From positions 1,116,001-1,180,000 of the forward strand of contig CANTAL010000021.1 in the NCBI GenBank assembly GCA_947650365.1: a stretch of 64,000 nt of DNA, in the 5' to 3' direction. The stretch is from Chamaelirium japonicum. Its lineage: Eukaryota > Streptophyta > Magnoliopsida > Liliales > Melanthiaceae. Made by a program: the position numbers and the translations under genes. Positions 14,153 through 63,089 of the stretch are shown one piece after another. Position 1 is the first letter of the stretch. Each line of letters begins with the position of its first letter. The notes under the pieces are model-generated. The model was given only the letters and a program-made list of their open reading frames with translations. It was not told the origin of the DNA and ran no database searches.

Positions 14153-14159
14153 TCTTCTT

Positions 14160-15560
14160 TCTTCTCTCTTTATTTATCTCTTCGTTCTCCTTTCTCTTTT
14201 TCTCTCTCTTATATCTTCGTTTCTCTCTATATTTTCTTCACTCTTCTATCTTTGTTTCTTTTTTCTATAGATTGTTTAGGCCCAAAGTTATCTTACCCGA
14301 TAAATAATATATGACCCCTTAAAGTGGGGCACGTTTGATGGCTCTCTCTTTCTCCTATCTCCAAAAACGTTATCAGTATGAACATATCGAGCCCAACTGA
14401 CCAGTCACAAAAAAACAGAGAAAGAAACGAAGATAAAAGAGAGAAAAGAAGAGAGAATAGAATAGAGAGATAAATGAAGAGAGAAGATAGAAGAAGATAG
14501 AAGAGAACGGAGAGATAAACGAAGAGAGAAGAGAGAAGAAGTTCTACTCCAGTCCATTGACCACGGGTATAGGTGTGAAGTATGAAGGAATCTAAATTCC
14601 AAAACTCTACTTCTTAATATTTATACGACCCCTTTAGGGTGGGGCTCGTTTGATGGCTCTCTCTTTCTCCCATCTCATTACAAGTTATCAGCATGAACCT
14701 ATTGAGCCCAACCGACCAATCGCAAGAAAATAAAAAAAGAAACGAAGACAGAAGTCGAGTTTTGGAATTTAGATTCGTTCTTACTTCACATCTAAACCCA
14801 TGGTTAATGGACTGGAGCAGGACTTCATCTCTCTTCTCTCTTCGTTTATCTCTCTATTCTCTTCTCTTTCTTCTTTTCTCTCTTCTTCTCTCTCTTCTAT
14901 CTTCATTTTTCTCTTTGTTTCTTATGACTGGTCGGTTGGGCTCGATATATTCGTGCTGATAATATATTGTGAGATAGGAGAAAGAGAGAGCCATCTAATG
15001 TGCCCCACCCTAAAGGGGTCATACATTGTTTATATGGTAAGTGTTGTGAGATAGGAGAATAAGAGAGTCATCAAACTTGCCCCACCCTAAATAGGTCGTA
15101 TTAATATTGAGAAGTAGAGATTTAGAATTTAGATTCCTTCTTACTTTACACCTATACCTGTGGCCAATGGACTAGAGCAAGACTTCTTCTCTCTTCGTTT
15201 ATCTCTCCATTCTATTCTCTCTTCTTCTCTCTCTTCTGTCATTGTTTCTCTCTCTGTTTTTTTCATAATCATATATTAGTTAAATAACATAGAGCAGGAC
15301 TTCTTTTCTCTTCTCTCTTTATTTATCTCTCCATTCTCTTCTCTCTTCTCATAACACGATATCAACACGAACATGTCGAGCCCAGCAGACAAGTCATAAG
15401 GAAACATAGAAAGAAACAAAGAGAGAAGAGGGAGAAGAAGAGAAAAGAGAATAAAGAGATAAACAAAGACAAAAGAGAGAAGAAGTCATACTCCAGTCCA
15501 TTGGCCATGGGTATAGCTGTGAAGTAAGAAGAAATCTAAATTCTAAAACTCCACTTCGCA
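14160..15560. repeat. Array modules, mainly forward
   Basis: Forward leaders near 14,370, 14,685 and 15,360; reverse near 14,945. Near 15,030 a truncated TATA block is joined to GTGTTGTGAGATAGGAG, doubling the end of a reverse module. No gene. Confidence 0.7.
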
Positions 15561-16386
15561 ATATTTATACGATCGTTTTAGGGTGGGGCATATTTGACAG
15601 CTCTCTCTCTCTCTCCCATCTCACAATACGTTATCAGCACGAACATGTCGATCCCAGCTGACCTGTCATAAGAAAACGAAAAGAGAAACAAAGACAAAAG
15701 AGAGAAGAGAATGGAGAGATAAATAAAGATAGAAGGGAGAAGAAGTCCTACTCCAGTCGAAAACTCTATAGAAGAGAGAAAAGAAAAGAGAATAGAACAG
15801 AGAGATAAATGAAGAGAGAAGAGAGAAGAAGTCCTACTCCATTCCATTGGCCACGGGTATAGGTGTAAAGTAAGAAGAAATCTAAATTCAAAAACTCTAC
15901 TTCTATTTTTGTTTCTCTCTCTGTTTTCTTGGGACATGTCGGTTGGGCTTGATATATTCGTGCTGATAACATGTTGTGAGATAGGACAAAGAAAGACCCG
16001 TCAAACATGCCCCACCATAAAGGGGTCATATAAATATTGAGAAGTGGAGTTTTAGAATTTAGATTCCTACTTACTTCGCACCTATACTCGTAGCCAATGG
16101 ACTAGAGTAGGGCTTCTTCTCTCTTCTCTCTTTATTTATCTCTCTGTTCTTTTCTATATTCTTCTCTCTCTTCTGTCTTTGTTTCTCTCTCTGTTTTTTT
16201 GCGACTAGTCGGCTGGGCTCGACATGTTCATGCTGATTATGTGTTGTGAGAAGAGAGAAGAAGAGAGAATAAAGAAGAAATCAAAAACTCTACTTAATAA
16301 TATAATTAAATCTCTATATTCTCTTCTCTCTTCTCCCATGGATTAGGGTTTCCCATAGATTGCTTAGGCCCTAAGTAAGCTTACCC

Positions 16387-21490: not shown

Positions 21491-21884
21491 TATGAGAAGT
21501 GGAGTTTTGGAATTTAGATTCCTTCTTACTTTACACCTATACCCGTGGCCAATGGACTGGAGCAGGATTTCTTCTCTCTTCTCTCTTCGTTTATCTCTCT
21601 GTTTTCTTCTCTCTTATTTTCTCTCTTCAGTCTTCATTTCACTCTTTATTTTCTTATGACTGGTCAGCTAGGCTCGATATATTTGTGCTGATAACGTGTT
21701 GTGAGATGGAAAAAAGAGAGAGCAATCAAACGTGCCCTATCCTTAAGGGGTCGTATATTATTTATAGGGTAAGCTTACTTAGGGCCTAAGTAATCTATGG
21801 AAAAGAGGTCGTATATTATTTATAGGGTAAGCTTACTTAGGGCCTAAGCAATTTATGGGAAACCCTAATCCATGGGAGAGGACC

Positions 21885-22845
21885 GACGGTGGATAGCCAT
21901 CCCATCGAATGATCTTATAACAGTTATAATGTTTTAAATTTTTTAAAGAAAAATATAAATTATTTTTAAAGTAAAAAATTCAGGAGTACCTCATCTTCCT
22001 TCTTTACTTCTTATTATTTAATTAATTTAATTACTCTAATAAATAAAATTATTAAATAATTATATAATTAAATAAATATTTATTTATTCATATAAATAAA
22101 TAATTAAATTATTTAAATAATTTATTTTTATTTAAATATTAAAATAAATAAATATTCTTTTGATTATTTAAAAAATATTAAGTTATTTAAAAAATATTTT
22201 ATATTTATATATTCAAATAATTAACTAATTATTTAAATAACAATTAAATAGTTATTCTTTTTTTTTTATTACTTAATTCAATAATTAATTTTTTTATTAA
22301 TTTTAATTAAAATTTCGTAATTTAATAAAACAATTATTTATTTATTTAATTATTTAATTATATAATAATTTATTTTATTATTATTTATTTAACTATAAAA
22401 TTATTTCATAATTAAATTATTTATTTGTTTTTGTACATAATCTATTTAATATATTTCTTTACTAAATAAGTTTTTAAATATTTAAATAATAGAATAATTT
22501 TTTAATTATTTAATAATAAAATAATAATTTAAGAAATATCAATAAAAATAAATAAAATAAATAAGTATATAATTAAACTATTATTTTTTTGTTTAATAAT
22601 TTAAATAATTAAATAGTTATCTAATTAAATATTTAATAATTTAATAATAATAAAAAAAATGAATTTAATTAAATAACTATATAATTAAATAAGTAAAATA
22701 ATTAATTATTTTTTAAAAAATTAAATTATTAAATTATTTAAATTATTAAATTATTTAATAATTAAATAAATTATTAATTTAATTAAAAAAAATTTAGTAA
22801 TATTACTATGATAATCATAATAACGTTTGCATAATACTATTGAAA
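21885..22845 (+). repeat. AT-rich module, about 950 bp, full length
   Basis: The left end reads GACCGACGGTGGATAGCCAT, then a GATCGAACGATCT-like stretch, AACAGTTATAATGTTTTAAA, a TTTTTAAAG-rich part and CCTCATCTTCCTTCTTTACT. The body is over 90% A/T with repeating TAATTAAATAATTTA wording and no open frame. The right end is ATTACTATGATAATCATAAT leading to ATACTATTGA. The two ends are not inverted repeats of each other. Other long copies: 27,305-28,245, 45,525-46,300 and, reversed, 33,790-34,640. Confidence 0.7.
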
Positions 22846-23554
22846 TGTAGAGTTTTGGAATTTAGATTCCTTCTTACTTTACACCTTTACCCGTGGCTGA
22901 TGGATTTGAACAGGACTTCTTTTCTCTTCATTTATCTCTCCGTTCTTTTCTCTCTTCTTATCTCTCTTATGTGGAGTTTTGGAATTTAGATTCCTTCTTA
23001 CTTCATACCTATACATATGGCCAATGGACTGGAGTAGAACTTGTTCTCTCTTCTCTCTACGTTTATCTCTTCATTCTCTTCTCTCGTCTTCTCTCTTTTT
23101 TGTCTTTGTTTCCCTCTCTATTTTCTTGTGACTGGTCGGTTGGGCTCGAAATATTCATGCTAATAATATATTATAGAATAGGGGAAAGAGAGAGCCATCA
23201 AATATGCCCCACCCTAAAGGGGTCGTATATTATTTATAAGGTATGCTTACTTAGGGCCTAAGCAATCTATAGGAAACCCTAATCCATGGTAGAAGAGAGA
23301 AGAGAATGGAGAGATTTAATTATATTACTGAGAAGTGAAGTTTTGGAATTTTGATTTCTTCTTACTTAATAACTATACTTGTGGTGAATGGACTGGAGCA
23401 AGACTTTTTCTCTCTTATCTCTTTATTTATCTCTCTATTCTTTTCTCTTTCCTTCTCTCTTCTTCTCTCTCTTCTGTCTTCATTTCTCTCCGTTTTTTTA
23501 TGACTGGTCCATTGGGCTCGACATGTTCGTGCTGATAACATATTGTGAGATGGG

Positions 23555-23745
23555 AGATTACTTATTTACTTTATTTATTTTATTTATTTCAATTAATATT
23601 TCTTTAAATATTATAAAGTGTATCATTTTTTTAAATATTTAAATAGGATCATTTCAATATTATTATTTAAATATTTAATTATAAAACATTATATATTTAT
23701 TAAATAATTTGTATAAATTTATAAGTATAAAAAATATTTTATTTC
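23555..23745 (+). repeat. AT-rich spacer specific to the 5-kb duplication family
   Basis: The block starts after GAGATGGGAG, contains AATATTTCTTTAAATATTAT and ends TATTTTATTTCTCTTCTTC. It recurs at 28,900-29,085 and 43,615-43,800, and as a reversed piece at 33,325-33,385. It is a good marker for copies I, II and III and for the inverted arm. Confidence 0.75.
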
Positions 23746-26509
23746 TCTTCTTCTCTCTTTATTTATCTCTCCGTTCTCTTCTCTCTTCTTCTCTCTCTTC
23801 TCTCTTCATTTCTTGCACCATTTTCTTGTGACTGGTCGGCTAGGCTCGACATGTTCATGCTGATAACGTGTTGTGAGAAGAGAGAAGAAAAGAGAAGAGA
23901 ATGGAAATAACAATGAAGAAAGAAAAGAGAAGAAGACTTACTCCAGTCCATTCACCACGGGTATAGGAGTGAAGTAAGGAGGAATCTAAATTCCAAAACT
24001 CCACTTCTCAATAATATAATTAAATATCTCCGTTCTCTTCCCTATTCTCCCATGGATTAGGGTTTCCCATAGATTGCTTTGGCCCTAAGTAAGATTGCCC
24101 TATAAATAAATATGATCCCTTTATAGTGGGGCATGTTTGATGGCTCTCTCTTTCTCCTATCTCATAATTCGTTATCAGTATGAACATGTCGAGCCCAGCC
24201 GACCAGTTGTAAGAAAACGAAGAGAGAAACGAAGACAGAAAAGAGAGAAGAAAAGAGAAGAAAACGGAGAGACAAACAAAGAGAAAAGAGAAAAGAAGTC
24301 CTGCTCCAGTCCATTCGCCATGGGTATAAGTATGAAATAAGAAGGAATCTAAATTCCAAAACTCCACTTCTATATAGCATCATCTCAAAGTTATTATGAT
24401 TATCATAGTAAATTCCAAAACTCTCTTCATTTTAATTAAATAATTAATTTAATTAAAAAAATTATAGTAACATTATCAATACGAAAAGAGAAGAAATTCT
24501 ACTCCAGTCCATTGGCCATGGGTATACGTATGAAGTAAGAACGAATCTAAATTACAAAACACTACTTCTCAATATTTATATGACCCCTTTAGGGTAGGGC
24601 ACGTTTGATGGCTCTCTCTTTCTTCCACCTCATAATACGTTATCAGAATAAACATATTGAGCTCAGCCTACCAGTCAAGTGAAAACGGAAAGAGAAACGA
24701 ACACAGAAGAGAGAGAATAAGAGAGGAGAAAATGGAGAGAGAAATAAAGGCAGAAGAGAGAAAAGAAGAGAGAACAGAATTAAGAGATAAACGAAGAGAG
24801 AAGAAGTCCTGCTCTAGTCTATTAGTCATGAGTATAGGTGTGAAGTAAGATGGAATCTAAATTTAAAAAGTCAACTTCTTAATATTTATACGACCCTTTT
24901 AGGGTGGTGCACATTTGACAGCTCTCTCTTTCTCCTATCTCACAATAGGTTATCAGTATGAACATATCGAGCCTAGCCGATCAGTTATAAGAAAACAAAG
25001 ATAGAGAAAAAATAGAAAAAAGGGAACAAGATAGAAGTTAATGGAGAGATAAATGAAGAGAAAAGAGAGAAGAAGTCCTACTACAGTCCATTGAACATGG
25101 GTCTAGGTATGAAGTAAGAAGTAATCTAAATTCTAAAACTCCACTTCTCAAAAATATAATTAAATCTCTCCATTCTCTTCTCTCTTCTCCCATGGATTAG
25201 GGTTTCCCATAGACTGCTTAGACCCTAAGTAAGCTTACTCTATAAATAATAAATAATATACGACCCTTTTAGGGTGGTGCATGTTTGACAGCTCTCTCTT
25301 TCTCCCATCTCACAACATGTTATCAGTAGGAACATGTCGAGCCCAGCTGACCAGTCGTAAGAAAACAGAGAAAGAAACAAAGACATAAGTAAAGTTTTGG
25401 ATTAAAGTAGGACTTCTTCTTTCTTCTCTCTTTATTTATCTCTCTATTCTCTTCCCTCTTCTTTTCTCTCTTCTGTTGAGTTTTTGAATTTAGATTCCTT
25501 CTTACTTTACACCTATACCCGTGGCCAATGGATTGGAGCAAGACTTCTTCTCTCTTCTCTTTTTGGTTATCTCTTTGTTCACTTCTCTCTTCTTCTCTCT
25601 CTTCTGTCTTCGTTTCTCACTCTATTTTCTTATAACTGGTCGACTGGGCTCGATATATTCGTGCTGATAACGTGTTATGAGATAGGAAAAAGAGAGAGCC
25701 ATCACACGTGCCCTACCCTAAAGGGGTCGTATAAATATTAAGAAGTGGAGTTTTGGAATTTAGATTCTTTCTTACTTCATACTTATACCCATAGCCAATG
25801 GATTGGAGCAGGACTTCTTTTCTCTTCTCTCTTCGTTTATCTCTCCGTTCTCTTTTATCTTTTTCTCTTTCTTTTATCTTTATTTCTCTCTCCATTTTCT
25901 TGTGACTAGTCGGTTGGGCTCAATATGTTCGTGCTGATAACGTGTTGTGAGAAAAGAAAAGAGGACCTAAATAAATTAATATAAATCTCTCTAGTTTTAT
26001 TTATTAAATAGAAGTCTGTCCTTATCTTCTCTCTCTTCTGTGGAGTTTTGGAATTAAGATTCCTTATTACTTCACACCTATACCTGTGGCCAAAGAACTG
26101 GAGCAATACTTCTTCTCTCTTCTCTTTTTGTTAATCTCTATGTTCTCTTCTTGATTCTTCTCTCTTTTCTCCATTCTTCGTTCTCTTCTCTCTTCTTCTC
26201 TCTCTTCTTTGGAGTTTTGGAATTTAGATTCCTTCTTACTTCATACCTATACCCTTGGCCAATGGATTGGAGCAAGAGTACTTTTGCCCTTCTCTCTTCG
26301 TTTATCTCTCCGTTCTCTTCTTTCTTCTACCAAAATAATTTAATTAAAAAATATAATTATTTAATTGAGAAAGAAACGAAAATAGAAGAGAAAGAAGAAG
26401 AGAGAAGAGAACAGAGAGATAAATAAAGAGATAAGAGAGAAGAAGTCCTGCTCCAGTCCATTAGTCATGGGTATAAGTGTGAAGTAAGAAGGAATCTAAA
26501 TTCTAAAAC

Positions 26510-26940
26510 TACATAGAAAAGAGAAAAGAAGAGAAAAGATAACGGAGAGATATATAAAGTTATAAGTAGAGTTTTGGAATTTAGATTCTTTCTTACTTCA
26601 CACCTATACCTGTGGACAATGGACTGGAGCAGGACTTCTTCTCTCTTCTCTCTTCATTTATCTCTCTGTTCTCTTCTCTTTTCTTCTCTTTTTTCTGTGG
26701 AGTTTTGGAATTTAGATTCCTTCTTACTTTACACCTATACCCATGACAAATAGACTGGAGCAGTATATCTTCTCTCTTCTCTTTTCGTTTATCTCTCCGT
26801 TCTCTTCTTTTTTTTTTCTCTTTCTTCGATCTTCGTTTCTCTCTCCGTTTTCTTATGATTGGTCGGTTGGGCTCGATATTTTCATGTTGAGAAAATATTA
26901 TGAGGTGGAAGAAAGAAGAGATGGAGAGATTTAATTATAT
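26510..26940. repeat. Linker between tandem copies I and II
   Basis: One and a half array modules (reverse leader near 26,870) with no counterpart at the end of copy II. The equivalent position after 31,850 continues differently. Confidence 0.6.
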
Positions 26941-29900
26941 TATTGAGAAGTGGAGTTTTGGAATTTAGATTCCTTCTTACTTCACACCTATCCCCGTGTC
27001 CAATGGACTAGAGCAGGACTTCTTCTCTTTTCTCTCTTCGTTTATCTCTTCGTTATCTTCTCTCTTCTGTATTCATTTCTCTCTTTGTTTTCTTATGACT
27101 GGTCGGTTGGGCTCGATATGTTCGTGCTGATAATGTGTTATGAGATGGGAAAAAAAAGAGTCGTCAAACGTGTCCCACCCTAAAAGGGTTATATATTATT
27201 TATAGAGTAAGCTTACTTAGGGCCTAAGCAATCTATGGGAAAGGGGTCGTATATTATTTATAGGGTAACCTTACTTAGGGCCTATGCAATATATAGGAAA
27301 CCATAATCCATGGGAGAGATCAGACGGTGGATAACCACCACATCGAACGATCTTAGAACAGTTGTAATGTTTTAAATTTTTTTAAAGAAAAATATAAATT
27401 ATTTTTATTAAAAAAATTCAGATTACCTCATCTTCCTTCTTTACTTCCTATTATTTAATTAATTATATTAGTTTAATAAATTAAATAATTAAATAATTTA
27501 TTAAATATTTATTTATTTATATAATTAAATAAATAAATTATTTAAATAATTAATTTATTATTTAAATATTAAAATAAATAAATATTTATTTGATTACTTC
27601 AAAAAATATTAAGTTATTTAAAAAAATATTTTATTATTTATATATTCAAATAATTAACTAATTATTTAAATAATAAGTAAATAGTTATATAATTTATTTT
27701 TAATTTTGTTACTTAATTAAATAATTAAATTTTTTTATTAATTTCAAAATATATTTTATAATTTAATAAAATAATGATTTAATTGCATAATAATTTATTT
27801 TATTATTATTTATTTAACTATAAAATTATTTAATATTTAAATTATTTATTTACTTTAGTAAATAATCTATTTAATATATTTCTTCACTAAATGAGTTTTT
27901 AAATATTTAAATATTTAACTAATTATTTAATTACTTAAAAATAAAATAATATTTTAAGAAATAACTAATAAAATAAAATAATTATATAATTATATAATTA
28001 AATAAATATTTCTTTATTTAATAATTTAAATAATTAAATCGGTACATAATTTAATTATTTTATAATATAATAAAAAATTAATAATTAAAATAATTAAATA
28101 AGTTAAAAAAATTAATTATTTTATAAAAAATATAATTACTAAATTATTTAAATAATTTAATAAATAAATAAATGATTAAATTAATTTAAAAAATTTATAA
28201 TAACATTACTATGATAATCATAATAACGTTGAGATGATACTATTGAGAAGTGGAGTTTTGAAATTTAGATTCATTCTTATTTCACACCTATACCCATGGC
28301 CAATGGACTTGAGCAGGACTTCTTCTCTCTTCTCCCTTCATTTATCACTCCATTCTCTTCTCTCTGATTCTCTCTATTCTATGGAGTTTTGAAATTTAGA
28401 TTCCTTCTTACTTCACACCTATACCTATGGCGAATAGACTGGAGCAGGACTTCTTATCTTTTCTCTCTTCATTTATCTTTTCATTCTCTTCTCTCTTCTT
28501 CTCCCTCTTTTGTCTTCGTTTCTCTCACTATTTTCTTGTAATTGGTCGGTTGGGCTCAACATGTTCGTATGGATAACATATTACGTGATGGGAGAAAAAG
28601 AGAGCCGTCATATGTGCCGCAACCCAAAGGGGTCATATATTTTTTATAGAGTAAGCTTACTTAATGCCTAAGTAATCTATAGAAAATCCTAATCCATGGG
28701 AGAAGAGAGAAGAGAATGGAGAGATTTAATTATATTATTAAGAAGTGGAGTTTTGGAATTTAGATTCCTTCTTACTTCACACCTATACCAGTGGCGAATG
28801 GACTAGAGCAGGACTTCTTCTTACTTCTCTCTTTGTTTTTTGTTGACTGGTCTGCTGGGCTCGACATGTTCATACTGATAACGTGTTGTGAGATAGGAGA
28901 TTATTTATTTATTTTATTTATTTTAATTAATATTTTTTCAAATATTATAAAGAATATCAGTTCTTTAAATATTTAAATAGTAACATCTCAATATTATTAT
29001 TTAAATATTTAATTATAAAATATTAAAAAATTACTAAATAATTTATATAATTTTATGAGTATGAAAAATATTTTATTTCTCTTATTCTCTCTTTATTTAT
29101 CTCTACGTTCTCTTCTCTCTTTTTCTCTCTCTTCTGTCTTCGTTTCTCGCACCGTTTTCTTGTGACTGGTCGGTTGGGCTCGATATGTTCGTGCTGATAA
29201 CGTGTTGTGAGAAGAGAGAAGAGAACAGAGAGATAAATAAAGAGAGAAGAGAGAAGTCTTACTCTAGTCCACTCGCCAAGGGTATTAGTGTGAAGTAAGA
29301 AGGAATGTAAATTCCAAAACTCTACTTCTCAATAATATAATTAAATCTCTCCATTCTCTTTTTTCTTTTCCTATGGATTAGGGTTTCTATAGATTGCTAA
29401 GGCCTTAAGTAAGCATACCCTATAAATAATATATAACCCCTTTAGGGTGTGACATGTTTGACGGCTCTCTCTTTCTCCTAAGTCACAATACGTTATCAGC
29501 ACGAATATGTCGAGCCCAGCCGACTAGTCACAAGAAAACAGAGAGAGAAATGAAGACAAAAGAGAGAAGAAAAAAGAAGAAAACAGAGAGATAAATAAAG
29601 AGAGAAAAGATAAGAAGTCATGCTCAAGTCTATTCATCATGGGAATAGGTGTGAAGTAAGAAGGAATCTAAATTCCAAAACTACTCCACTTCTCAATAGT
29701 ATCATCTCAATGTTATTATGATTATCATAGTAGATTCCAAAACTATCTTTATTTTAATTAAACGATTAATTTAATTAAAAAAATTATAGTAACATTATCA
29801 GTACGAAAAGAGAAAAAGTCCTGCTCCAGTCCATTAGCCACGGGTATAGGTGTAATGTAAGAAGGAATCTAAATTACAAAACTCTATTTCTCAATATTTA

Positions 29901-31850
29901 TATAAGACTTTTAGGGTGGGGCACATTTGATGGATCTTTCTTTCTTCTACCACACAAGTTATCAGCACGAACATGTCGAGCACAGCCTACCAGTCACAAG
30001 AAAACGGAGAGAGAAACGAAGACAGAAGAGAGAAAAAGAGAGAAGAGAAAACAGAGAGAAAATAAAGACAGAAGAGAGAGAAAAAGAGAGAAGAGAACGA
30101 AAAGATAAACGAAGAGAGAAGAAGTTTTGCTCCAGGCCATTGGCTACGGATATAGGTATGAAGTAAGAAGGAATCTAAATTCTAATACTTAATTTCTCAA
30201 TGTTTATATGACTCCTTTAGGGTGGAGCACATTTGACGTCTCTCTCTTTCTCCTATCTCACAATATGTTATCAGCACGAACATGTCGAGCCCAGCCGATC
30301 AGTCATAAGAAAACAGAGAGATAAATGAAGGCAGAGGAGAAAGAACAAGAAAGAAGAGAACGGAGGGATAAATAAAGACAAAAGAGAGAAGAAGTCCTGC
30401 TCTAGTCCATTAACCATGGGTCTAGGTGTGAAGTAAGAAGTAATCTAAATTCCAAAACTCCACTTCTCAATAATATAATTTACACTCGCCATTCTCTTCT
30501 CTCTTTTCCCATGGATTAGGGTTTCTCATAGATTGCTTAGGCCCTAAGTATGCTTACCCTATAAATAATAAATAATTTATGACCCCTTTAGGGTGGAGCA
30601 TGTTTGACGCTCTCTCTCTTTCTCTTATCTCACAACACGTTATCAGTACGAATATGTCGAGCCCAGCTGACTAGTCGTAAGAAAACAGAGAGAGAAACAA
30701 GGCCAGAAGTGAAGTTTTGGAATTTAGATTCCTTCTTACTTCATACCTATACCCATGGCCAAAGGATTGGAGTAAGACTTCTTCTCACTTCTCTCTTAAT
30801 TTATCTCTTCATTCTCTTCTCTCTTCTTCTCTTTCTTCTATGGAGTTTTTGAATTTAGATTTCTTCTTACTTCACACCTATACCCCTGGCCAATGGACTT
30901 GAGCAAGACTTTTTCTTTATTGTCTCTTCGTTTATCTCTTTGTCCTCTTCTCTCTTCTATTTTTGTTTCTCTCTCCATTTTTTTATGACTAGTCGGTTGG
31001 GCATGACATGTTCGTATTGATAACGTGTTGTGAGATGGGAGAAATAGAGAGCTGACACACGTGCCGCACCCCAAAGGGGTCGTATAAATATTGAGAAGTG
31101 GAGTTTTGGAATTTAGATTCCTTTTTACTTCACACCTATACCCGTGGCGAATAGACTGGAGCAGGACTTCTAATCTCTTATCTCTTCGTTTATCTCTCCG
31201 TTATTTTCTCTCTTTTTCTCTCTCTTCTGTCTTTATTTCTCTCTTCGTTTTCTTGTAACTAGTTGGTTGGGCTCGACATGTTCATACTGATAATGTATTG
31301 TGAGAAGAGAGAAGAGAACCTAAATAAAATAATATAAATATCTCTAGTTTTAATAATTAAATAGAAGTCGGTTGTTATCTTTTTTCTCTTTTGTGGAGTT
31401 TTGGAATTTAGATTCCTTATTACTTCAAACTTATACCCGTGGCCAATGGATTAGAGTAGGACTTCTTCTATCTTCTCTTTTTGTTTATCTTTACGTTCTC
31501 TTCTCTATTATTCTCTCTTCTCTCTTCTCTTATCTCTTCTTCTCTCTCGTCTGTAGAGTTTTGGAATTTAGATTCCTTCTTACTCCACACCTATACTCGT
31601 GGCCAATGGACTAGAGCAGGACTTCTTCTCCCCTTCTCTCTTTGTTTATCTCTCTATTCTGTTCTCTCTTCTACCTAAATAATTTAATTAAATAATATAA
31701 TTATTTAATTAAGAGAGAAACAAAGACAAAAGAGAGAAGAGACTAAAGAGATAAACGAAGAGAGAAGATAGTAGAAGTCTTACTCCAGTCTATTCGCCAC
31801 TGGTATAGGTGTAAAGTAAGAAGGAATCTAAATTCAAAAACTCTACTTCT
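26940..31850. repeat. Tandem duplication, copy II
   Basis: Same internal order as copy I. It contains the full AT-rich module at 27,305-28,245 and the AT spacer at 28,900-29,085. Reverse leaders near 27,115, 28,560, 28,865 and 29,190, then forward leaders near 29,490, 29,955, 30,270 and 30,640, then reverse near 31,010 and 31,280. No gene. Confidence 0.85.
27305..28245 (+). repeat. AT-rich module in copy II
   Basis: Starts GATCAGACGGTGGATAACCA, has GATCGAACGATCTTAGAACA and the CATCTTCCTTCTTTACTTCC marker, then ~800 bp that is nearly all A/T. Ends ACATTACTATGATAATCATA followed by GATGATACTATTGAG. Confidence 0.7.
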
Positions 31851-32710
31851 CAATATTTATATGACCTCTTGAGGGTACGGCACGTGTGATGGCCCTCTCT
31901 TTCTCCCATCTCACAACACGTTATCAACACGAACATGTCGTGCCTAGGCGAGACAAAAAAACGGGGATAGAAACGATGATAGAAAAAAGAGAAGAAGAGA
32001 GAAGAGGACAGAGAGATAAACGAAGAGAAAAGAGATAAGAAGTCCTGATGTAGTCCATTGGCCAGGAGTATAGATGTGAAGTAAGAAAGAATCTAAATTC
32101 TAAAACTCCATTTCTCAATAATATAATTAATCTCTCCATTCTTTTCTCTCTTCTTGCATGGATTAGAGTTTCCTATAGATTGCTTAGGCCCTAAGTAAGC
32201 TTACCCTATAAATAATATACGACCTCTTTAGGGTGGGGTATGTTTGATGACTCTCTCTTTCTCCCATTTTATAACACGTTATCTGCACGAACATGTCAAG
32301 CCCAGCCGACCAGTCGTAAGAAAACAGTGAGAGAAACGAAGATAGAAGTGGAGTTTTGAAATATAGATTCCTTCTTACTTCACACCTATACCCATGGTCA
32401 ATGGAATAGAGCAGGACATCTTATCTCTTCTCTCTTCATTTATCTCTCTGTTCTCTTTTCTCTTTTTCTGTCTCTTCTGTCTTCGTTTCTCTCTTTGTTT
32501 TCTTACGACTGGTTGGCTGGGCTCAACATATTCGTGCTGATAACGTGTTGTGAGATGGGAGAAAGAGAGAACCATCAAATATGCCCCACTCTAAAGGTGT
32601 CGTATATTATTTATAGGGTAGCTTAGTTAGTGCCTAATCGATATATATCAAACCCTAATCTATGGGAGAAGAGAGAAGAAAACGGAGAAATTTAATTATA
32701 TTATTGAGAA
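31850..32710. repeat. Array modules at the palindrome centre
   Basis: The centre of the palindrome runs from about 29,690 to 32,710 and includes the tail of copy II. In 31,850-32,710 there are forward leaders near 31,920 and 32,280 and a reverse leader near 32,530. No gene. Confidence 0.65.
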
Positions 32711-35700
32711 GGGAAGTTTTGGAATTTAGATTCCTTCTTACATCACACCTATACCCGTGGCCAATGGACTGGAGCAAGGCTTCTTCTTTTTTCTCTCTTC
32801 ACTTATCTTTTTATTCTCTTCTCTCTTCTTCTCTCTGTTTTGTCTTCGTTTCTCTTTCCGTTTTTTTGTGACTTGTCGGCTGGGCTCGATATATTCATAC
32901 TGATAATGTATTATAAAATGGGAGAAATAGAGAGCCGTGAAATATTGCCCACCCTAAAAGGGTCGTATATTATTTAAAGGGTAAGCTTACTTTGGGCCTA
33001 AGCAATCTGTGGGAAACCCTAATCCATAGTAGAAGAGAAAAGAGAATGGAGAGATTTAATTATATTATTGATAAGTGGAGTTTTGAAATTTAGATTCCTT
33101 TTTACTTTATACCTATACCCGTGGCTAATGGACTGGAGCAGGACTTCTTGTCTCTTCATTTATCTCTCATGTCTTTTCTCTTTTCTTCTCTCTTCTCTCT
33201 TCTCTCAACACGTTATAGCACGAACATGTCGAGCCCAGCCAACCAGTCAAAAGAAAATAGAGCGAGAAACGAACACAGAAGAAAGAGAAGAAGAGAGAAG
33301 AGAAAAAAGAAATAAATAAAGAGAGAAGAAAAGAAATAAAATATTTTTCTTGCTCATAAATTTATATAAATTATTTAATAATTTTGCCCAGCCGACTAGT
33401 CATAAGAAAACGGAGAATATATCGAGCCCAGCCGACCAGTCATAACGTTTGACTTCTCTCTTATTCTCCAATCTCATAATATATTATTAGTTTGAATATA
33501 TCGAGCCCAGCCAACCAGTCATAAGAAAACAGAGAGAGAAACGAAGACAGAACAGAGAAGAAGAGAGAAGAGAATGAAAAGATAAACGAAGAGAAAAGAG
33601 AAAAGATGTCATACTCCAATCCATTGGCCATAGGTATAAGTGTGAAGTAAGAAAGAATCTAAATTTCAAAACTTCTCAGAAGAAAAAGAAGAAGAAAGAA
33701 GAGAACAGAGAGAAAAATAAAGAGAGAAGAAGTCATGCTCCAGTCCATTGGCCACGGGTATAGGTGTAAAGTAAAAAAGAATCTAAATTTCAAAACTCCA
33801 CTTATCAATAGTATCAGCTTAAAGTTATTATAATTACCATAGTAATGTTACTATAATTTTTTTAATTAAATTAATCATTTAATAAATTATTAAATAATTT
33901 AATAATTTAAATAATATAATAATTAAGATTTTAGTAAAATAATTAATTTATTTAATTATTTATTTATCTATTTATTTAATTAAATTTATATTTTTTTTAT
34001 TTATTATTATTATATTATAAAATAATTAAATTAGTTAATTATTAAATTCTTTAAATTATTAAATAAAAAAATAATTATTTAATTATATAATTACTTTATT
34101 AATTTATTATATTAGAAATTTCTCAAAATATTATTTTATTATGAAATAATTCAATAATTAGTCAATTATTTAAATATTTAAAAACTTATTTAGTATAGAA
34201 ATATATTTAATAGATTATTTAATTAATCAAATAAATAATTTAATTAATAAATAATTTTATAATTAACTAAATAATAATTAAAATAAATTATTATGTAATT
34301 ATTTGAATATATAGGTAATAAAATATTTTTTTAAATAATTTAATATTATTTTAAATAATCAATTAAATATTTCTTTAATTTAATATTTAAATAATAAATA
34401 AATTATTAAAATTATTTAGTTATTTAATTATACAGATAATTAAATATTTATTTAATTATTTAAAAATTTAATTTATTAAATTAATTAAATTAATTAAATA
34501 ATAGAAAGTAAAGAAGGAAGATGAGGCATACCTGAATTTTTTTGCTTTAAAAATAATTTATATTTTTCTTTATAAAAATTTAAAATATTACAACTGTTAT
34601 GCGATCGTTCGATCAGATGGATATCCATCGTCGGATCTCTCCCATGGATCAAGGTTTCCTATAGATTGCTTAGGCCCTAAGTAAGCTTGCCCTATAAATA
34701 ATATACAACCCCTTTAGGGTGGGGCACGTTTGCTGGCTCTCTCTTTCTCCCATCTCATAATACATTACCAGCACAAACATGTCGAGCCCAGCCGACCGGT
34801 ATAAGAAAACGGAGAGAGAAATGAAGACAGAAGAGAAAGAAAAGAATAGAGAGATAAACAAGAAAAAAAAGAGAAAAGTCATGCTCCAGTCCATTGGCCA
34901 TGAATATAGGTGTGAAGTAAGAAGGAATCTAAATTCCAAAACTCCACTTCTCAATAATATTATTAAATCTCTCTATTCTTTTTTTTTTGCCCATCTCACA
35001 ACATGTTATCAGCACAAGCTTATCGATCCCAGCCGACCAGTCACAAGAAAATTAAGAGAAAAATAAAGAAAGAAGAGAGAGAAAAAGAAAAAAGAGAACG
35101 GATAGATAAACAAAGAGAGAATAAAGAAGAAGTCCTACTCCAGTCCATTGGCCATGGGTGTAAGTGTAAAGTAAGAAGGAATCTAAATTCCAAAACTTTA
35201 TTTCTCAATAGTATCATCTCAACATTATTATGATTATAATAGTAATATTACTATAATATTTTGAATTAAATTAATTATTATTTAATTATTAACAAAGTGT
35301 GAAGTAAGAAGGAATCTAAATTTCAAAACTTCACTTCTTAATATTTATACGACCCCTTTAGGGTGGGACACGTTTGACGGCTCTGTCTTTCTCCCATCTC
35401 ACAACACGTTATCAGTACGAACATGTCGAGCCCAGCCAACTAGTCGAAAGAAAAAGAAAAGAGAAACAAAGACAGAAAAGGGAGAAGAAGAGAGAAGAGA
35501 ACAGACAGATAAATGAAGATAGAAGAGAGAAGAAGTCCTGCTCTAATTCATTGGCCACAAGTTTAGGTGTGAAGTAAGAAGGAATCTAAATTCCAAAACT
35601 CCATAGAAAATAGAAGAAGAGATAAGAGGAGAGATAAATAAAGAGAGAAGAGAGAAGAAGTCCTACTCCAGTCCAATGGCCATGGGTATAGGTGTAAACT

Positions 35701-38130
35701 AAGAAGGAATCTAAATTCCAAACCTTACTTCTGTCTTCATTTATTTGTCTATTCTTTTCTCTCTTCTTCTCTCTCTTCTGTGTAGTATTGGAATTTAGAT
35801 TCTTTCTTACTTCACACATTTACCCGTTGTAAATAGACTAGAGCAGGACTTCTTCTGTCTTCTCTGTTTATTTATCTTTCCTTTCTCTTCTTTTTTCTTC
35901 TCTCCCTTTTGTTTTTGTTTCATTCTTAATTAAATAATTATATTATTTAAATAAATTATTTATATAGAAGAGAGAAAAGAATAGAGAGATAAATGAAGAG
36001 AGAAGAGGATAAGAAGTCCTGCTCTAGTCTATTGGCTACGGGTATAGGTATGAAGTAAAAAGGAATCTAAATTCCAAAACTCCAAAAAAGAGAGAGAAGA
36101 AGAGAGAAGAGAAAGAAGAAGAGAGAGAAGAAAAGATAAAAGAACAGAAAGATAAACGAAGAGAGAAGAAGTCCTGCTCCAGTCCATTGGCCATAGGTAT
36201 AGGTGTGATGTAATAAGGAATCTAAATTCCAAAACATCACAAAAGAGAGAGAACATGAGGACAGACTTCTATTTAATTATTAAAACTAGAGAGATTTAAA
36301 TTATTTTAATTAGGTTCTCTTCTCTTTCCTCACAACATGTTATCAGCACGAACATGTCGAGCCCAACCGACCAGTCACTAGAAAATAAAGAAAGAAACGA
36401 AGACAGAAAAGAGAGAAAAAGAAAGAAGACAACGGAGAGATAAATAAAGAGAGAAGAAGTCATGCTCTAGTTCATTGGCCACGGGTATTGGTGTGAAGTA
36501 AGAAGGAATCTAAATTCTAAAACTTTACTTCTTAATATTTATACAAGCCCTTTAGGGTGGGGCACGTGTAATGGCTCTCTCTTTCTCCCATCTCATAACA
36601 CGTTATCAGCACGAACATGTCAAGCCCAGCCGACCAGTCAAAAGAAAATTGATAGATAAAAAAAGAAAGAAGAAAGAGAAAAAAAGATAAGAGAATAGAG
36701 AGATAAATGAAGAGAGAAGTAGTCCTACTCCAGTCCTTTGACCACGTGTATATGTGTGAAGTAAGAAGGAATCTAAATTCCAAAACTCTACTTCTGTCTT
36801 TGTTTCTATTTCCATTTTCTTATGACTGGTCGGCTGAGCTCGACATGTTCGTACCGATAATATATTGTGAGATGGGAGAAAGGGAGAGCCGTCAAACGTG
36901 CCCCATCCTATTAGGATCGAATATTATTTATTATTTATAGGATAAGCTTACTTAGGGCCTAAGTAATCTATGGGAAACCCTTATCCATGGGAAAAGAGAT
37001 AAGAGAATAGAGAGAATTAATTATATTATTGAGAAGTGGAGTTTTGAAACTTAGATTCATTCATACTTCACACCTATACCCGTGACCAATAGACTAGAGC
37101 AAAACTTCTTCTCTCTTCTTATTTCGTTTATCTCTCTATTCTATTCTCTCTTCTTCTCTCTCTTCTGTCTTTATTTCTCTCTTCATTTTCTTGTGATTGG
37201 TCGGCTGGGCTTGATATGTTCATGCTGATAACGTGTTGTGAGATTGGAGAAAGAGAGAGCGTCAAATATGCCCTATCATGTAGGGGTCATATAAATATTA
37301 AGAAGTTGAGTTTGGAATTTAGACTCCTTCTTACTTTACACCTATACCCGTGGCCAATGGACTGGAATAGGACTTCATTTCTCTTCTCTTTTCGTTTATC
37401 TCTTCTTTCTCTTCTCTCTCTTCTATCTATGTTTCTCTCTCCGTTTTATTTTCTCTCTTCTTCTCTTTTTTCTGTCTTCGTTTCTCTCTCTATTTTCTTG
37501 TGACTGGTAGACTGGGCTCGACATGTTTACACTGATAATGTGTTGTGATATGGAAGAAAGAGAGAGCCGTCAAACATGCCCCACCATAAAGGGGTCGTAT
37601 AAATATTGAGAAGTGGAGTTTGATATTTAGATTCCTTCTTATTTCACACCTATACCCCTGGCTAATGGACTTGAGCAGGACTTCTTCTCTTTTCGAGCTG
37701 ATAATATTACTATAATTTTTTTAATTAAATTAATTGTTTAATTAAATCGAAGAGAGTTTTGGAATTTACTATGATAATCATAATAACATTGAGATAATAT
37801 TATTGAGAAGTAGAGTTTTATAATTTAGATTCCTTCTTACTTCAAACCTATACCCATGATGAATGGACTGGAGCAGGACTTCTTCTCTCTTCTCTCTTCG
37901 TTTATCTCTCCGTTCTCTTCTTTTTTCTTCTCTCTCTTCTATCTTCGTTTCTCTCTTCGTTTTTTGTGACTGGTTGACTAGGCTCGATATGTTCGTGCTG
38001 ACAATATATTATAAGATGGGAGAAAGAGAGAGTCGTTAAATATACCCCACCCTAAAGGGGTCGTATATTATTTATAAGGTAAGCTTACTTAGGGCCTAAG
38101 TAATCTATGGGAAACCAAAATCCATAGGAG
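32710..38130 (-). repeat. Right arm of the large imperfect palindrome
   Basis: Reverse-complement counterpart of 24,040-29,690. A local excess of ~300 bp near 35,220-35,340 (AT-rich, with fold-back wording) explains the change in the coordinate sum from ~61.9 to ~62.3 kb. Beyond about 38,130 the match with sequence left of 24,040 is lost: the two sides carry different module types. Confidence 0.8.
33790..34640 (-). repeat. AT-rich module, reversed copy in the right arm
   Basis: Begins with the fold-back end (ATAGTATCAGCTTAAAGTTA) and ends AACTGTTATGCGATCGTTCG, then ATCCATCGTCGGATCTCTCC. It retains the AAGTAAAGAAGGAAGATGAG marker (complement of the CTTCCTTCTTTACTT marker of plus copies). Confidence 0.7.
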
Positions 38131-41100
38131 AAGAGAGAAGAGAATGGAGAGAGAAAAGATAGAAGAAGACCTACTGCAGTCCATTGGCCATGGGTATAGA
38201 TGTGAAGTAAGAAGGAATCTAAATTCCAAAACTCAACTTTTCAATATTTATACGACCCTGTTAGGGTGGGCCACGTTTGACGCCTCTCTCTTTCTCCCAT
38301 CTCACAACACGTTATCAGTACAAACATGTCGAACCCAACCGACCAGTTGCAAGAAAACTGAGAGAGAAACGAAGACAGAAGTTGATTTTTGGAATTTAGA
38401 TTCCTTCTTACTTTACACGTATACCCGTGGCCAATGGACTGGAGCAGGACTTCTTCTATTTTCTGTCTTCATTTATCTCTCCATTCTCTTCTCTCTTCTT
38501 TTCTTTTTTCTATGGAGTTTTGGAATTTAGATTCCTTCTTACTTCATACCTATATTTGTGGCTAATGGACTGTAGCAGGACTTATTTTCTCTTCTATCTT
38601 TGTTTAACTCTCTATTCTCTTCTCAATTATGTCTTTATTTATAATATAAAATATAAGTCTATTCTACTTAATTATTTAATTATCATAATTAATTAATTAA
38701 TATACATTGAGATATTCAATTTGGTTTTGAAATTATTGAAGTCCTGCTCGTGTCCATTTTTATTAATTTAAATAACTATTTAATATATTTAGATGTTGAG
38801 ATGATACTATTTTAAAATTATTTTAGGTTTCACATAGATTGTTTAGTCCCTAAGTAAGCTTACCCTATAAATAATTTATGACCCCTTTAGGGTGGGGCAC
38901 GTCTGACGGCTCTCTCTTTCTCCCATCTTATAACACGTTATCCGCACGAACATGTCGAGCCCAACTGACCAGTTATAAGAAAACGGAGAAAGAAATGAAG
39001 ACAGAGAAGAAAGAATAACAGAGAAGAGAACGAAGAGATAAATAAAGAGAGAAGTGTGAAGAAGTCCTACTCCAGTCAATTGGCTACGGGTATAGGTGTG
39101 AAGTAAGAAGGAATCTAAATTTCAAAACTCCATTTCTGTTTTTATTTTTCTGTCCATTTTCTTGCAACTGGTCGGCTGGGCTTAACATGTTCGTGCTGAT
39201 AACGTGTTGTGAGATGGGAGAAAGAGAGAGTCGTCAAACATACCTTATCCTAAAGTGGTCATATATTATTTATAGGGTAACCTTACTCTGGACCTAAGCA
39301 ATCTATGGGAAACCCTAATCCATAGGAGAAGAGAGAAGAGAATGGAGAAATTTAATTATATTATTAAGCAGTGGAGTTTTGGAATTTAGATTTCTTTTTA
39401 CTTCACACTAATACCCGTGGCGAATGGACTGGAGTAGGACTTCTTTTCTCTTCTCTCGTTGTTTATCTCTCTATTCTCTTCTCTCTTCTTTTCTCTTCTC
39501 ACAACACATTATCAGCATGAACACGTCGAGCCCAACCGACCAGTCACAAGAAAATAGAGAGAAAAACAAAGACCGAAGAAAGAGAAGAAAAGAGGAGAGA
39601 ACAGAAAGATAAACGAAGAGAGAAGAGATAAGAAGTCCTACTCCAGTCCAATAGCCAAGGGTATAGATGTGAAGTAAGAACGAATCTAAATTCCAAAACT
39701 CCACTTCTCAATATTTATACGACCCCGTTAGGGTGGGGAACATTTGATGTCTGTCTCTTTCTCCCATCACATAACACGTTATCAATACAACCATATTGAG
39801 TCTAGCTGACCAGTCATAAGAAAACGGAGAGAGACATGAAGACAAAAGTGGAGTTTTAGAATTTAGATTCCTTCTTACTTCATACCTATACCCATGGTCA
39901 AAGGACTGGAGCAGGACTACTTCTTTCTTCTCTCTTTATTTAACTCTCCGTTATAAGAAAACGGAGAGAAAAACGAAGACAGAAAAGAGAGGAGAACGGA
40001 GAGATAAACAAAGAGAGAAGAGAGAAGAAGCCCTGCTCCAGTCTATTAGCTACTAGTATAGGTATGAAATAAGAAGGAATCTAAATTACAAAACTCCAAT
40101 AAAGAGAGAAGAAGAGAGAAGAGAGTGGAGAGATAAATAAAGAGGGAATGGAGAAGAAGTCCTGCTCCAGTCCATTGGCCACAGGTATAAGTGTGAAGTA
40201 AGAAGGAAGCTAAATTCCAAAACTCCAATTTGTCTTTTTTTCTCTCTCCGTTTCCTTACGACTGGTCGGCTGGGCATGACATGTTCATGCTGATAACGTT
40301 TTGTGTGATGGGAGAAAGTAAAAGCCGTCAAACATGCCCCATCCTAAATGGGTCATATATTATTGATAGGGTAAGGGTTGTGAGATGGGAAAAAGAAAGA
40401 GCCATTAAATGTGCCTTACCCTAAAGAGGTCGTATATTATTTATAGGGTAAGCATACTTAGGGCATAAGCAATATATGAAAAACCCTAATCCATGGAAGA
40501 AGATAGAAGAGAACGGAGATATTTAATTATATTAATAAGAAGTGGAGTTTTAGAATTTAGATTCTTTCTTACTTCTCGCACCTATACCCGTGATAACTCT
40601 CTCTTTATCCCATCTCACTACATGTTATCAGCACGAACATGTCAAGCTCAGCTAACCAGTCATAATAAAATGGAAAGAGAAACGAAGATAGAAGAAAGAG
40701 GAGAAAAGAGAAGAGAACGGAGAAATAAATAATGAGAGAAGAGAAAATAAGTCCTGCTCCAGTCCATTAGCCACGGGTATAAACATGAAGTAATAAGGAA
40801 TCTAAATTCCAAAACTCTACTTCTCAATATTTATATGACCCCTTTAGTGTGGGGCACATTTGACAACTCTCTATTTCTTCCATCTCACAATACGTTATCA
40901 GTACGAACGTGTCTATCCTAGCCGACAAGTCACATGAAAGTAGAGAGAGAAATAAAAATAGAAGAGAGAGAAGTAGAGAGAAAAGAAGGGAGAGATAAAT
41001 AAAAAGAGAAGAGAGAAGAAGTCCTGCTCTAGTCCATTGGCCATGGGTATAGGTGTGAAGTTAGAAGGAATCTAAATTCCAAAACTTTACTTTGCAATAT

Positions 41101-43384: not shown

Positions 43385-45410
43385 TAATATTGAGAAGTGG
43401 AGTTTTGGAATTTAGATTCCTTTTTACTTCACACCTATACCCATAGCCAATAGACAGGAGCAAGACTTCTTCTCTCTTATCTCTTTTTTTAACTCTCCGT
43501 TCTCTTCTCTCTCCTTCTCTCTCCATCTCTCTCTTCTGTCTTCATTTCTTTCTCTGTTTTTTTATGACTAGTCCATTGGGCTCGACATATTCGTATTGAT
43601 AACGTATTGTTAGATGGGAGATTACTTTTTTATTTTATTTATTTTAATTAATATTTCTTTAAATATTATAAAGTATATCGTTTCTTTAAATATTTAAATA
43701 GTACCATCTTAATATTATTATATAAATATTTAATTATGAAACATTTCATATTCATTAAATAATTTATATAAATTTATGTGCATAAAAAATATTTTATTTC
43801 TCTTCTTCTCTCTTTATTTATCTCTATATTCTCTTCTCTCTTCTTCTCTCTCTTCTGTCTTTGTTTCTTGTACCGTTATCTTGTGATTGGTTGGCTGGGC
43901 TCGACCCGTTCGTGCTGATAACATGTTGTGAGAAGAGAGAAGAAGAGAAAAGAGAACAGAGAGAACAATAAAGAGAGAAAAGAAAAAAAAGCCTTACTCC
44001 AGTCCATTCGCCATCGGTATAGGAGTGAAGTAAGAAGGAATCTAAATTTCAAAACTCCACTTCTTAATAATATAATTAAATATCTCCGTTCTTTTCTCTA
44101 TTCTCCCATGGATTAGGGTTTCCTATAGATTGCTTAGGCCTTAAATAAGCTTACCCTATAAATAAATACGACCCCTTTAGGGTGGGGCATATTTGATGGA
44201 TCTCTCTTTCTTCCATCTCATAATTCGTTATCAGTATGAACATGTCGAGCCCAGCTGACCAGTCGCAAGAAAACGAAGAGAGAAACGAAGATAGAAAAGA
44301 GAAGAGAACGGAAAGATAAATAAACAGAGAAGAGAAAAGAAATACTGCTACAGTCCATTCACCATGGGTATAAGTATGAAATAAGAATAAATCTAAATTC
44401 CAAAACTCCATTTCTCAATAGCATCATCTCAAAGTTATTATAATTATCATAGTAAATTCCAAAACTCTCTTTGTTTTAATTAAATAATTAATTTAATTCA
44501 AAAAATTATAGTAATATTATCAGTACGAAAAGAGAAAAAGTCCTGCTCCAGTCCATTGGCCATGGGTATAGGTGTGAAGTAAGAAAAAATCTAAATTACA
44601 AAAATCCACTTCTTAATATTTATATGATCCATTTAGGGTAGGGCACATTTGATGGCTCTTTCTTTCTTCTACCTCACAACACGTTATCAGAATGAACATA
44701 TTGAGCCCAACCTAACAGTCAAGTGAAAACAAAGAGAGAAACAAAGACAGAAGAGAGAGAAGAAGAGAGAAGAGAAAATAAAGAAAGAAACAAAGACAGA
44801 AGAGAAAAGAAGAGAGAAGAGAATAAAGAAATAAACAAAAGAAGAAGAAGTCTTGCTCTAGTCCATTAGCCACGATTAAAGATGTGAAGTAAGAAGGAAT
44901 CTAAATTCCAAAACTCAACTTCTCAATATTTATACGACCCCTTTAGGGTTGGGCATATTTAACGGCTCTCCCTTTCTCCTATCTCACAACACGTTATCAG
45001 TAGGAACATGTCGAGCCCAACCGACCAATCGTAAGAAAATAGAGAGAGAAACGAAGACAGAGGGAAGAGAACGGAGAGATAAACAAAGAGATAAGAGATA
45101 AGAAGTCATGCTCTATTCCATTGACCATGGGTATAAGTATGAACTAAGAATGAATCTAAATTCTAAATCTCCATTTCTGTCTTCGTTTCTCTCTCCATTT
45201 TCTTGCGACTGGTCGACTGGGCTCGATATATTCGTGCTGATAACTTATTGTGAGATGGGAGAAAGAGAGAGTCATCAAACGTGCCCCACCCTAAAGGGGT
45301 CGTATATTATTTATAGGGTAAGCTTACTTAGGACCTAAGCAATCTATGGAAAACCCTAATCCATTGGAGAAGTAGAAGAGAACTGAGAGATATAATTATA
45401 TTATTGAGAT
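43385..45410. repeat. Partial third copy of the 5-kb duplication
   Basis: Parallels 23,330-25,320. Shared: the rare TAGTCCATTGGGCTCGAC form of the leader block (43,568; 23,506), the AT spacer (43,615-43,800), the one-armed fold-back ending TTATCAGTACGAAAAG (44,518), the rare CAGTCAAGTGAAAAC form (44,718; 24,672) and a TCAACTTC linker (44,915; 24,871). Beyond ~45,030 it diverges from copy I. Confidence 0.75.
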
Positions 45411-46300
45411 GTAGAGTAGAGACATCAAACGTGCCCCACCCCAAAGGGGTCGTATATTATTTATAGGTTAAGCTTACTTAGGGCCTAAACAATCTATGAG
45501 AAACCCTAATCCATGGGAGAGATCCGACGATGGATAGCCATCTGATCGAACGATCTCATAGCATTTGTACTGTTTTAAATTTTTTTAAAGAAAAATATAA
45601 ATTATTTCTAAAATAAAAAATACAGGTGTGCCTTATCTTCCTTCTTTACTTACTATTATTTAATTAATTTATTTAGTTTAATAAATTAAATAGTTAAATG
45701 ATTAAATAAATATTTAATTATCTATATAATTAAATTATTTAAATAATTTATTTATTATTTAAATATTAAAATAAATAAATATTTATTTAATTATTTAAAA
45801 AAATATTAAGTTATTTAAAAAAATATTTTATTAATTATATATTTCATACTTTAATAAAATAATTTTTTAATTATTTAATTATAGAATAATTAATTTAAAA
45901 TATTATTTATTCAACTATAAAATAATTTAATAATTAAAATATTTATTCCTTTAAGCAAATTATCTGTTTAATATATTTTTAACTAAATAAGTTTTTAACT
46001 ATTTAAATTATTAACTAATTATTTAATTATTTTAAAATAAAATAATAATTATATAAATAACTAATAAAAAGAATTAAAAAATTAATTATATAAATAAATC
46101 ATTATTTATTAATATACTAATAATAAATAATTAAAATAATAAATTTAATTAAATAACTAGATAATTAAGTAATTAAATAAATTAATTAATTTACCAAAAA
46201 TATAATTATTAAATTATTAAATTATTTAAATAATTAATTTAATTTAAAAAATTATAATTATATTACTATGATAATCATAATAACTTTGGGATGATACTAT
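45410..46300 (+). repeat. Doubled reverse TATA block followed by a full AT-rich module
   Basis: 45,410-45,520 repeats the reverse TATA and telo-box block already present at 45,290-45,365, the same arrangement that precedes the modules at 21,885 and 27,305. The AT-rich module runs from ~45,525 (GATCCGACGATGGATAGCCA) to ~46,300 (GATGATACTATTGAG). Confidence 0.7.
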
Positions 46301-53652: not shown

Positions 53653-53657
53653 GCCCC

Positions 53658-55500: not shown

Positions 55501-55539
55501 CGAAAGACCCTCTGCCAGGGTCGCGGACTCAATCGCCTG

Positions 55540-63085: not shown

Positions 63086-63089
63086 AGCA

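Follow-up and report, generated by a model that had tools for sequence, protein, structure and literature searches.

Structure of the Locus

The window analyzed here is a stretch of 64,000 nucleotides of Chamaelirium japonicum (contig CANTAL010000021.1, hereafter C33; C33:1,116,001-1,180,000), taken from a genome assembly of 1.52 Gb in 3,253 contigs, in which C1-C12 are large chromosomes of 69.9-137.3 Mb each, C13 measures 3.9 Mb and the contig of the window is unplaced. Positions 1-52,680 form a repeat field of two main modules, M1 and M2, each present in both orientations, and within this field lies an imperfect palindrome of 14 kb. Our analysis confirmed that this palindrome is real, but that it is an old, decayed inverted copy.

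Self-comparison of the window at E ≤ 1e-30 gave 1,702 inverted and 1,719 direct matches, with 1,688 of the inverted ones inside the field. When these were chained, the palindrome ranked first among the 953 inverted chains of the 52.7-kb field (4,685 bits; runner-up, 2,655 bits). Its left arm lies at 24,027-29,705 on the forward strand, its right arm at 32,695-38,152 on the reverse strand and its 3-kb centre at 29,706-32,694. The arms of about 5.5 kb and the 3-kb centre proposed in an earlier note on this DNA are thus a genuine inverted duplication, found also at other loci. When the full arms are compared in reverse complement, 4,988 bases align with 84.4% identity; the alignment is not gap-free (1,161 gap columns), and the longest unbroken identical run between the arms is 55 bases.

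The same note had inferred collinearity from rare landmarks that recur inverted with steady coordinate sums, and the self-comparison recovered the same anti-diagonal and the same sums. Four pieces make it up: 24,027-25,401 with 38,150-36,779 (83.0% identity, coordinate sum 62,177), 25,475-26,987 with 36,791-35,297 (80.9%, sum 62,266), 27,240-28,610 with 34,715-33,450 (75.7%, AT-rich, sum 61,955) and 29,027-29,705 with 33,385-32,695 (82.7%, sum 62,412). Among 1,000 overlapping anti-diagonal bands of 600 bases, the band at 62.0-62.6 kb came first with 7,532 bases covered, against a background mean of 2,284 bases (standard deviation 1,528; 99th percentile 6,248). The band at 67.1-67.7 kb almost equals it (7,259 bases), because the left arm also exists as a direct tandem copy.

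This direct copy places the palindrome in a larger arrangement. The higher-order unit A, of 5.4 kb, occupies 21,493-26,940 on the forward strand and is followed on the same strand by its tandem copy, unit B (26,944-31,842), as delimited by self-comparison, chaining and a tree of copies; positions 21,493-26,510 are repeated in direct orientation at 26,944-31,842 with 82.9-83.6% identity, and this A/B chain outscores the inverted chain of the palindrome (5,943 vs. 4,685 bits). The centre of the palindrome is mostly the remainder of unit B, and behind it stands the direct match of 23,470-26,510 to 28,816-31,842 at 82.9%. A partial direct copy, unit D (43,385-46,936, forward strand), is internally about 1.9 kb shorter, with 23,323-25,148 matching 43,385-45,178 at 85.8% and 27,240-28,838 matching 45,443-46,936 at 74.5%. 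The palindrome is therefore one inverted copy among at least four copies of a single 5.4-kb unit, the right arm being unit C beside the tandem pair A and B. Within the left arm, an AT-rich segment at 27,320-28,240 (forward strand; limits set by eye) has its inverted counterpart at about 33,800-34,620, matching at 75.7%.

Below the level of units, nhmmer searches (E ≤ 0.001), each started from one copy of the module in the window, found 162 matches to M1 (78 forward, 84 reverse) and 144 to M2 (72 in each orientation). Together these 306 modules, 150 forward and 156 reverse, form 88 orientation runs where 153.9 are expected by chance (standard deviation 8.7); as switches are rarer than chance, modules that lie side by side tend to point the same way, in short blocks. 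Classical satellite DNA consists of head-to-tail tandem monomers, and the field, with its two nearly balanced orientations and 88 runs, does not have that organization. Five of its reading frames were scanned against Pfam without a match, the remaining frames not being scanned, and the window contained no tRNA genes and no Rfam matches at gathering score. A methylation signature based on CpG depletion was considered and dropped, since the field is as low in GpC as it is in CpG (0.63 for each).

The Block at Other Loci

Matches elsewhere in the genome were collected with five queries along the window, retaining the best 40 each (200 in total) of 6,333-16,310 first-look candidates; these top candidates are partly allelic and describe the best copies, not copy number or overall distribution. 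Other loci were compared over fetched stretches of up to 30 kb, and two places over 10 kb only. At all six other loci read that far, both arms were found in the same orientation with the centre unflipped. Window 11.5-41.6 kb recurs on C4 at 99.0-99.2% identity, about 1.15-1.20 Mb from the C4 start, and C33 looks like the other haplotype of this C4 end, because at four places the matches on one correspond to those on the other in the same order. The block around the palindrome is 95-97% identical at C57, C292, C3:92.7 Mb and C47, certain outer pieces falling to 91-94% in C292 and C3, and 91-93% identical at C41. For the palindrome arrangement itself, the figures are 99% at C4, 96-97% at C47, 95-96% at C57, C292 and C3, and about 92% at C41. 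C41 carries about 0.47 kb more than the window at 33.4 kb; the window lacks this sequence, which is also present in C2:668-707 kb, at the short stretch 33,386-33,449 (breaks at 33,386-33,387/33,445). Collinearity at C57 extends to the 6.6-kb and 48.9-kb queries, and of a shared block that reaches about 44 kb by position, 30 kb were read directly. Among the 40 best matches to 24,027-26,987, ten, counting those in the window, C4 and C57, are accompanied on the same strand by a match to 34,800-35,800 whose distance departs from the expected one by at most 2.4 kb; the other 30 are not counter-examples, as only the best 40 per query were kept.

These loci bear directly on whether the palindrome could be an artefact of assembly, in which misjoined long repeats created a structure absent from the chromosome. 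The region is highly repetitive and the assembly has 3,253 contigs and apparent retained haplotigs, all of which would invite such errors; yet the same order and orientation are found in C33 and C4, the apparent haplotype pair, and again at five further loci whose arms differ from the window by 3-8%, and a divergence of about 16% between the arms should be resolved by long-read assemblers. Since the palindrome is present at other loci too, we regard an assembly slip as extremely improbable.

The best matches are concentrated toward chromosome ends. Of the 200, 116 are placed on chromosomes, on 9 of the 12 large ones, the other 84 lying on unplaced contigs; 64 of the placed matches are less than 2 Mb from an end, 32 are at 2-8 Mb, 20 at 8-21 Mb and none deeper. 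For these best matches, with 64 of 116 within 2 Mb and 96 of 116 within 8 Mb, the distribution is the terminal one of a subtelomeric repeat. CCCTAAA is the plant-type telomere repeat, and 56 copies of it stand in the first 400 bases of C3. The ends of C2 (end) and of C8, C9 and C57 (starts) share, by eye, another short repeat, in which GAATGGAT and the reverse complement of it are combined with CGTACG. Clusters of the field at 8-21 Mb from scaffold ends were seen at C1:117 Mb, C2:109-111 Mb, C5:82-84 Mb and C10:59-60 Mb.

Longer spacings were also noticed. The query at window 6,600-7,900 gave five same-orientation match pairs 35.6-37.2 kb apart (C3:92.7-93.1 Mb, C292 and C317), which suggests a larger unit of about 37 kb at these places, and matches to window 34,800-35,800 are 181.6-186.4 kb apart on C3, C43, C36, C14 and C12, suggesting that these five contigs share blocks of that size.

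Beyond the field, and outside the palindrome, positions 52,681-64,000 (forward strand; border set by eye) hold Ty3-type retroelement material with Pfam matches to gag, protease and reverse transcriptase in three separate open frames and a pair of sequences resembling long terminal repeats (LTRs) at 53,657-54,567 and 59,820-60,730 (97.9% identical). At 52,707-53,636 there is a related LTR-like piece in inverted orientation, and a direct repeat of 87% identity between 1-2,095 and 50,504-52,679 (offset about 50.5 kb) ends at the border of the retroelement.

We also considered that the block might be a giant mobile element with ends of its own, of which the palindrome would be a functional part. 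Parts of the block do occur on 9 of the 12 large chromosomes, on both strands and mostly at 91-97% identity (one listed full-length match, 88%). Against such an element, however, none of the five field frames scanned matches Pfam, the three frames that do match belong to the neighbouring retroelement, and the parts recur at differing spacings of about 36-37 kb and about 182-186 kb; we consider it quite unlikely.

Age of the Arms and a Younger Palindrome

Conversion-maintained palindromes, such as those on mammalian Y chromosomes, have same-locus arms that are more alike than orthologous arms. Here, the identity between the two arms of one locus is 83.6-85.7% across seven loci, whereas orthologous arms are 92.1-99.3% identical, and no gene conversion between arms is visible across these seven loci. 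Arms from different loci are 83.6-85.4% identical. As same-locus arms are about as alike as different-locus arms, the palindrome predates its spread. When copies A-D of four loci were placed in a tree by their 1.1-kb core (without the D copy of C57, which lay outside the fetched stretch), they split by position in the block and not by locus, each split with a support of 1.0. Most simply read, these sequence relationships indicate that the tandem and inverted duplications would have happened once, before the block spread, and that the arms have drifted apart since.

The earlier note had further regarded this DNA as a rearrangement hot spot, a view that the comparison does not bear out: the centre is flipped at none of the six other loci, and the arms carry no visible conversion. 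Weighing against an untouched centre are an unclassified 10-kb insertion in the centre of C47, about 0.7 kb extra at window 30.75 kb in C2:138-148 kb (10 kb fetched), which otherwise tracks the window through the left arm, and C3:95.69 Mb (one of eight fetched places, 10 kb only), where collinearity ends at window 30,748 and gives way to different sequence of the field. The last two places also weigh against the reading of the block that we put forward in the Discussion.

A second and younger palindrome of the same repeat was found. Two places on C2 and one on C4 carry matches to window 48.9-50.3 kb that face each other in pairs, about 36 kb from one to the other. C2:668,001-707,000, the one locus read at full length, is a palindrome of window-like sequence; its arms, truncated where the fetched stretch ends, measure at least 16.0 kb and are 97.4% identical, and its spacer is 6.4 kb long; at C2:~996,600-1,035,242 and C4:~93,902,902-93,941,591, the sampled ends and inner borders match, the C4 copy lying in the opposite direction. 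In outer segments of 1.3-1.4 kb, same-locus arms are 97.95-98.22% identical and corresponding arms across loci 98.90-99.79%; because corresponding arms are the closer ones, the simplest account is that the younger palindrome, too, arose once and was then copied as a whole. On its right side, at the inner end, the likeness shifts from one parent sequence to the other within about 70-100 bases (40-base bins), by eye in the M2 core. This supports module-mediated inverted joining, which may have proceeded by template switching, fold-back or ectopic recombination.

Module M2 and Its Primer Site

The M2 copy at 29,369-29,559 on the reverse strand, from which the query was taken, lies within the left arm; read on the forward strand, it has TATAAATA at 29,421, a primer site of half-tRNA-Ile type at about 29,490-29,504 and an ATG 2 bases after it. 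The order on the M2 sense strand is TATAAATA, which is a TATA box, then, 69-70 bases on, a stretch complementary to TCGTGCTGATAACG, and an ATG 2 bases later. Within three mismatches, TCGTGCTGATAACG has 113 copies vs. 18 for a backward control, and within two mismatches 94 vs. 0; TATAAATA starts 69-70 bases upstream of the primer site in 38 of the 113 copies, and the ATG stands 2 bases past it in 57. A tRNA-Ile pattern gave nine genomic matches, of which three were fetched; all three were called as tRNA-Ile genes by ARAGORN, with anticodon AAT, and read TCGTGCTAATAACG. The sole difference between TCGTGCTAATAACG and the module is at the wobble position, where the genes have A and 97% of the module copies have G, these copies having been picked by likeness to a G-bearing motif; such a difference is expected if inosine templated the primer site.

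An edited half tRNA-Ile primer site has been reported for copia elements of the Bianca lineage (Neumann et al.; PMC6317226), and the primer site of M2 is of this kind. From this match, M2 is read as a retrotransposon leader: it is most likely the leader of an LTR retrotransposon, with TATA box, primer site and ATG, that has become satellite-like, the primer site being the one feature that suggests its Bianca membership. As to the reverse transcriptase, RNase H and integrase domains of the lineage, the five field frames gave no Pfam match, full elements elsewhere not being sought.

Hairpins and Small RNAs

Plant inverted-repeat loci that yield small interfering RNAs (siRNAs) are known, and such long loci have near-identical arms. 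The earlier note had envisaged transcripts through the palindrome folding into long double-stranded RNA, and a functional long inverted repeat, whose transcript Dicer-like enzymes would cut into siRNAs that silence the repeat family, would be in keeping with two real and largely collinear arms. The arms themselves do not fit this role, with their 84.4% identity, 1,161 gap columns and no perfect run beyond 55 bases. After complexity filtering, inverted exact matches 21 bases or longer number 2,481 in the field, of which 28 lie on the palindrome axis and 431 have loops of at most 5 kb; within 24,027-38,152, the latter cover 2,934 bases and the axis matches 876, in sets that may overlap. There is thus more scope for pairing between opposed modules that lie close together than between the palindrome arms.

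Selection for hairpin pairing was also sought in parallel changes and rejected. Sites changed in both arms reach about twice the expectation in 12 of 15 locus pairs, with none shared in the three closest pairs; between the window and C41, 50 sites changed in both arms where 24.0 were expected, 19 of them in parallel. The direct copies A and B have a similar excess (36 vs. 12.1 expected, 12 parallel), and changes in both arms are therefore not a mark of pairing.

A 22-nt small RNA of ice plant, mcr-miR6, is listed as a novel microRNA (miRNA) with a 233-nt hairpin (PMC4977306), and the M2 core matches most of it as well as most of a Brassica primer for quantitative PCR. Although this entry could be counted in favour of a functional inverted repeat, its hairpin is module-sized and thus favours single modules over 14-kb arms. 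The ice-plant case makes module-scale small RNAs conceivable here by analogy, but not palindrome-scale ones, and such miRNA and primer entries may be retrotransposon primer-site sequence. On all this evidence, a functional role of the long inverted repeat is very unlikely. The exact module strings also matched a zebrafish paper; searched with such exact strings, the literature gave no paper describing the repeat (other spellings and supplements not searched), and a search joining palindrome and subtelomere with further terms gave no paper either.

Discussion

Considering the above results, we conclude with good confidence that the palindrome is an old inverted copy of a 5.4-kb unit, carried as a passenger in a composite subtelomeric repeat that lacks recognized coding sequence and is dispersed between chromosome ends. 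In the course of events that we propose, the repeat would have grown from short modules, one of them, M2, most probably being the leader of a Ty1/copia element with a Bianca-type half-tRNA-Ile primer site. Units would then have been duplicated in tandem and inverted, most likely through template switching or ectopic recombination between opposed modules, and the surrounding block would later have been copied between non-homologous chromosome ends, probably by ectopic exchange. The palindrome would have travelled along as a passenger, presumably without a function of its own.

Several observations weigh against this interpretation. Twenty of the 116 placed best matches lie 8-21 Mb from an end, as interstitial blocks or scaffold misjoins; none of the 116 is on C8, C9 or C11; and the matches scored are the best 40 per query of 6,333-16,310 candidates, with 84 of the 200 on unplaced contigs. 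The joining step rests on one junction, seen in 40-base bins amid similar modules. As for the origin of M2, the leader is seen alone, none of the coding domains that a Bianca source would have accompanying it, and the frequency of G at the wobble position comes from copies that a G-bearing motif had selected.

Four known systems come close to this repeat in different respects. The Bianca Ty1/copia elements (PMC6317226) share the edited half tRNA-Ile primer site, and many M2 copies have the TATA box upstream and the ATG downstream of it, but here the leader alone is seen, in 144 matches and both orientations, complete elements not being sought. The khipu repeat of common bean (PMC3797529) likewise occupies the terminal megabases of many chromosomes with exchange between non-homologous ends; it is described as tandem arrays of a 528-bp unit, whereas here modules in both orientations build nested direct and inverted units of several kilobases. 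Human fold-back inverted duplications (PMC3907307) likewise consist of inverted copies on either side of a spacer, the boundary of which bears short inverted sequences, in contrast to which the present palindromes lie in plant subtelomeric repeat DNA, differ in age, occur at several loci and have no known dicentric intermediate. Tandem arrays of Cassandra, a terminal-repeat retrotransposon in miniature (PMC7215508), are also made of non-coding retroelement parts, with recombination proposed as the cause, but Cassandra contains 5S RNA sequence and is found clustered in and near 5S ribosomal DNA, whereas M2 is a leader of TATA and half-tRNA-Ile type, present in both orientations and terminal.

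A bolder proposal would be that the subtelomeres of this plant act as palindrome-building machines, in which opposed leader modules seed repeated fold-back duplications, the old one of 14 kb and the young one of at least 38 kb, and TATA-bearing modules in either orientation yield short hairpin RNAs that silence the ends; we mention it as a speculation that is unlikely to hold as a whole.

What deserves attention at this locus is a probable retrotransposon leader that has multiplied in both orientations, together with nested palindromes of different ages, the palindrome itself being most likely a passenger. The findings suggest that a half-tRNA-primed retrotransposon contributed its leader as bulk subtelomeric repeat. 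At these plant chromosome ends, inverted duplications of two clearly different ages are built from one module family, with arms 84% and 97% identical, and since their junctions are readable, the origin and spread of large subtelomeric palindromes could be tested here.

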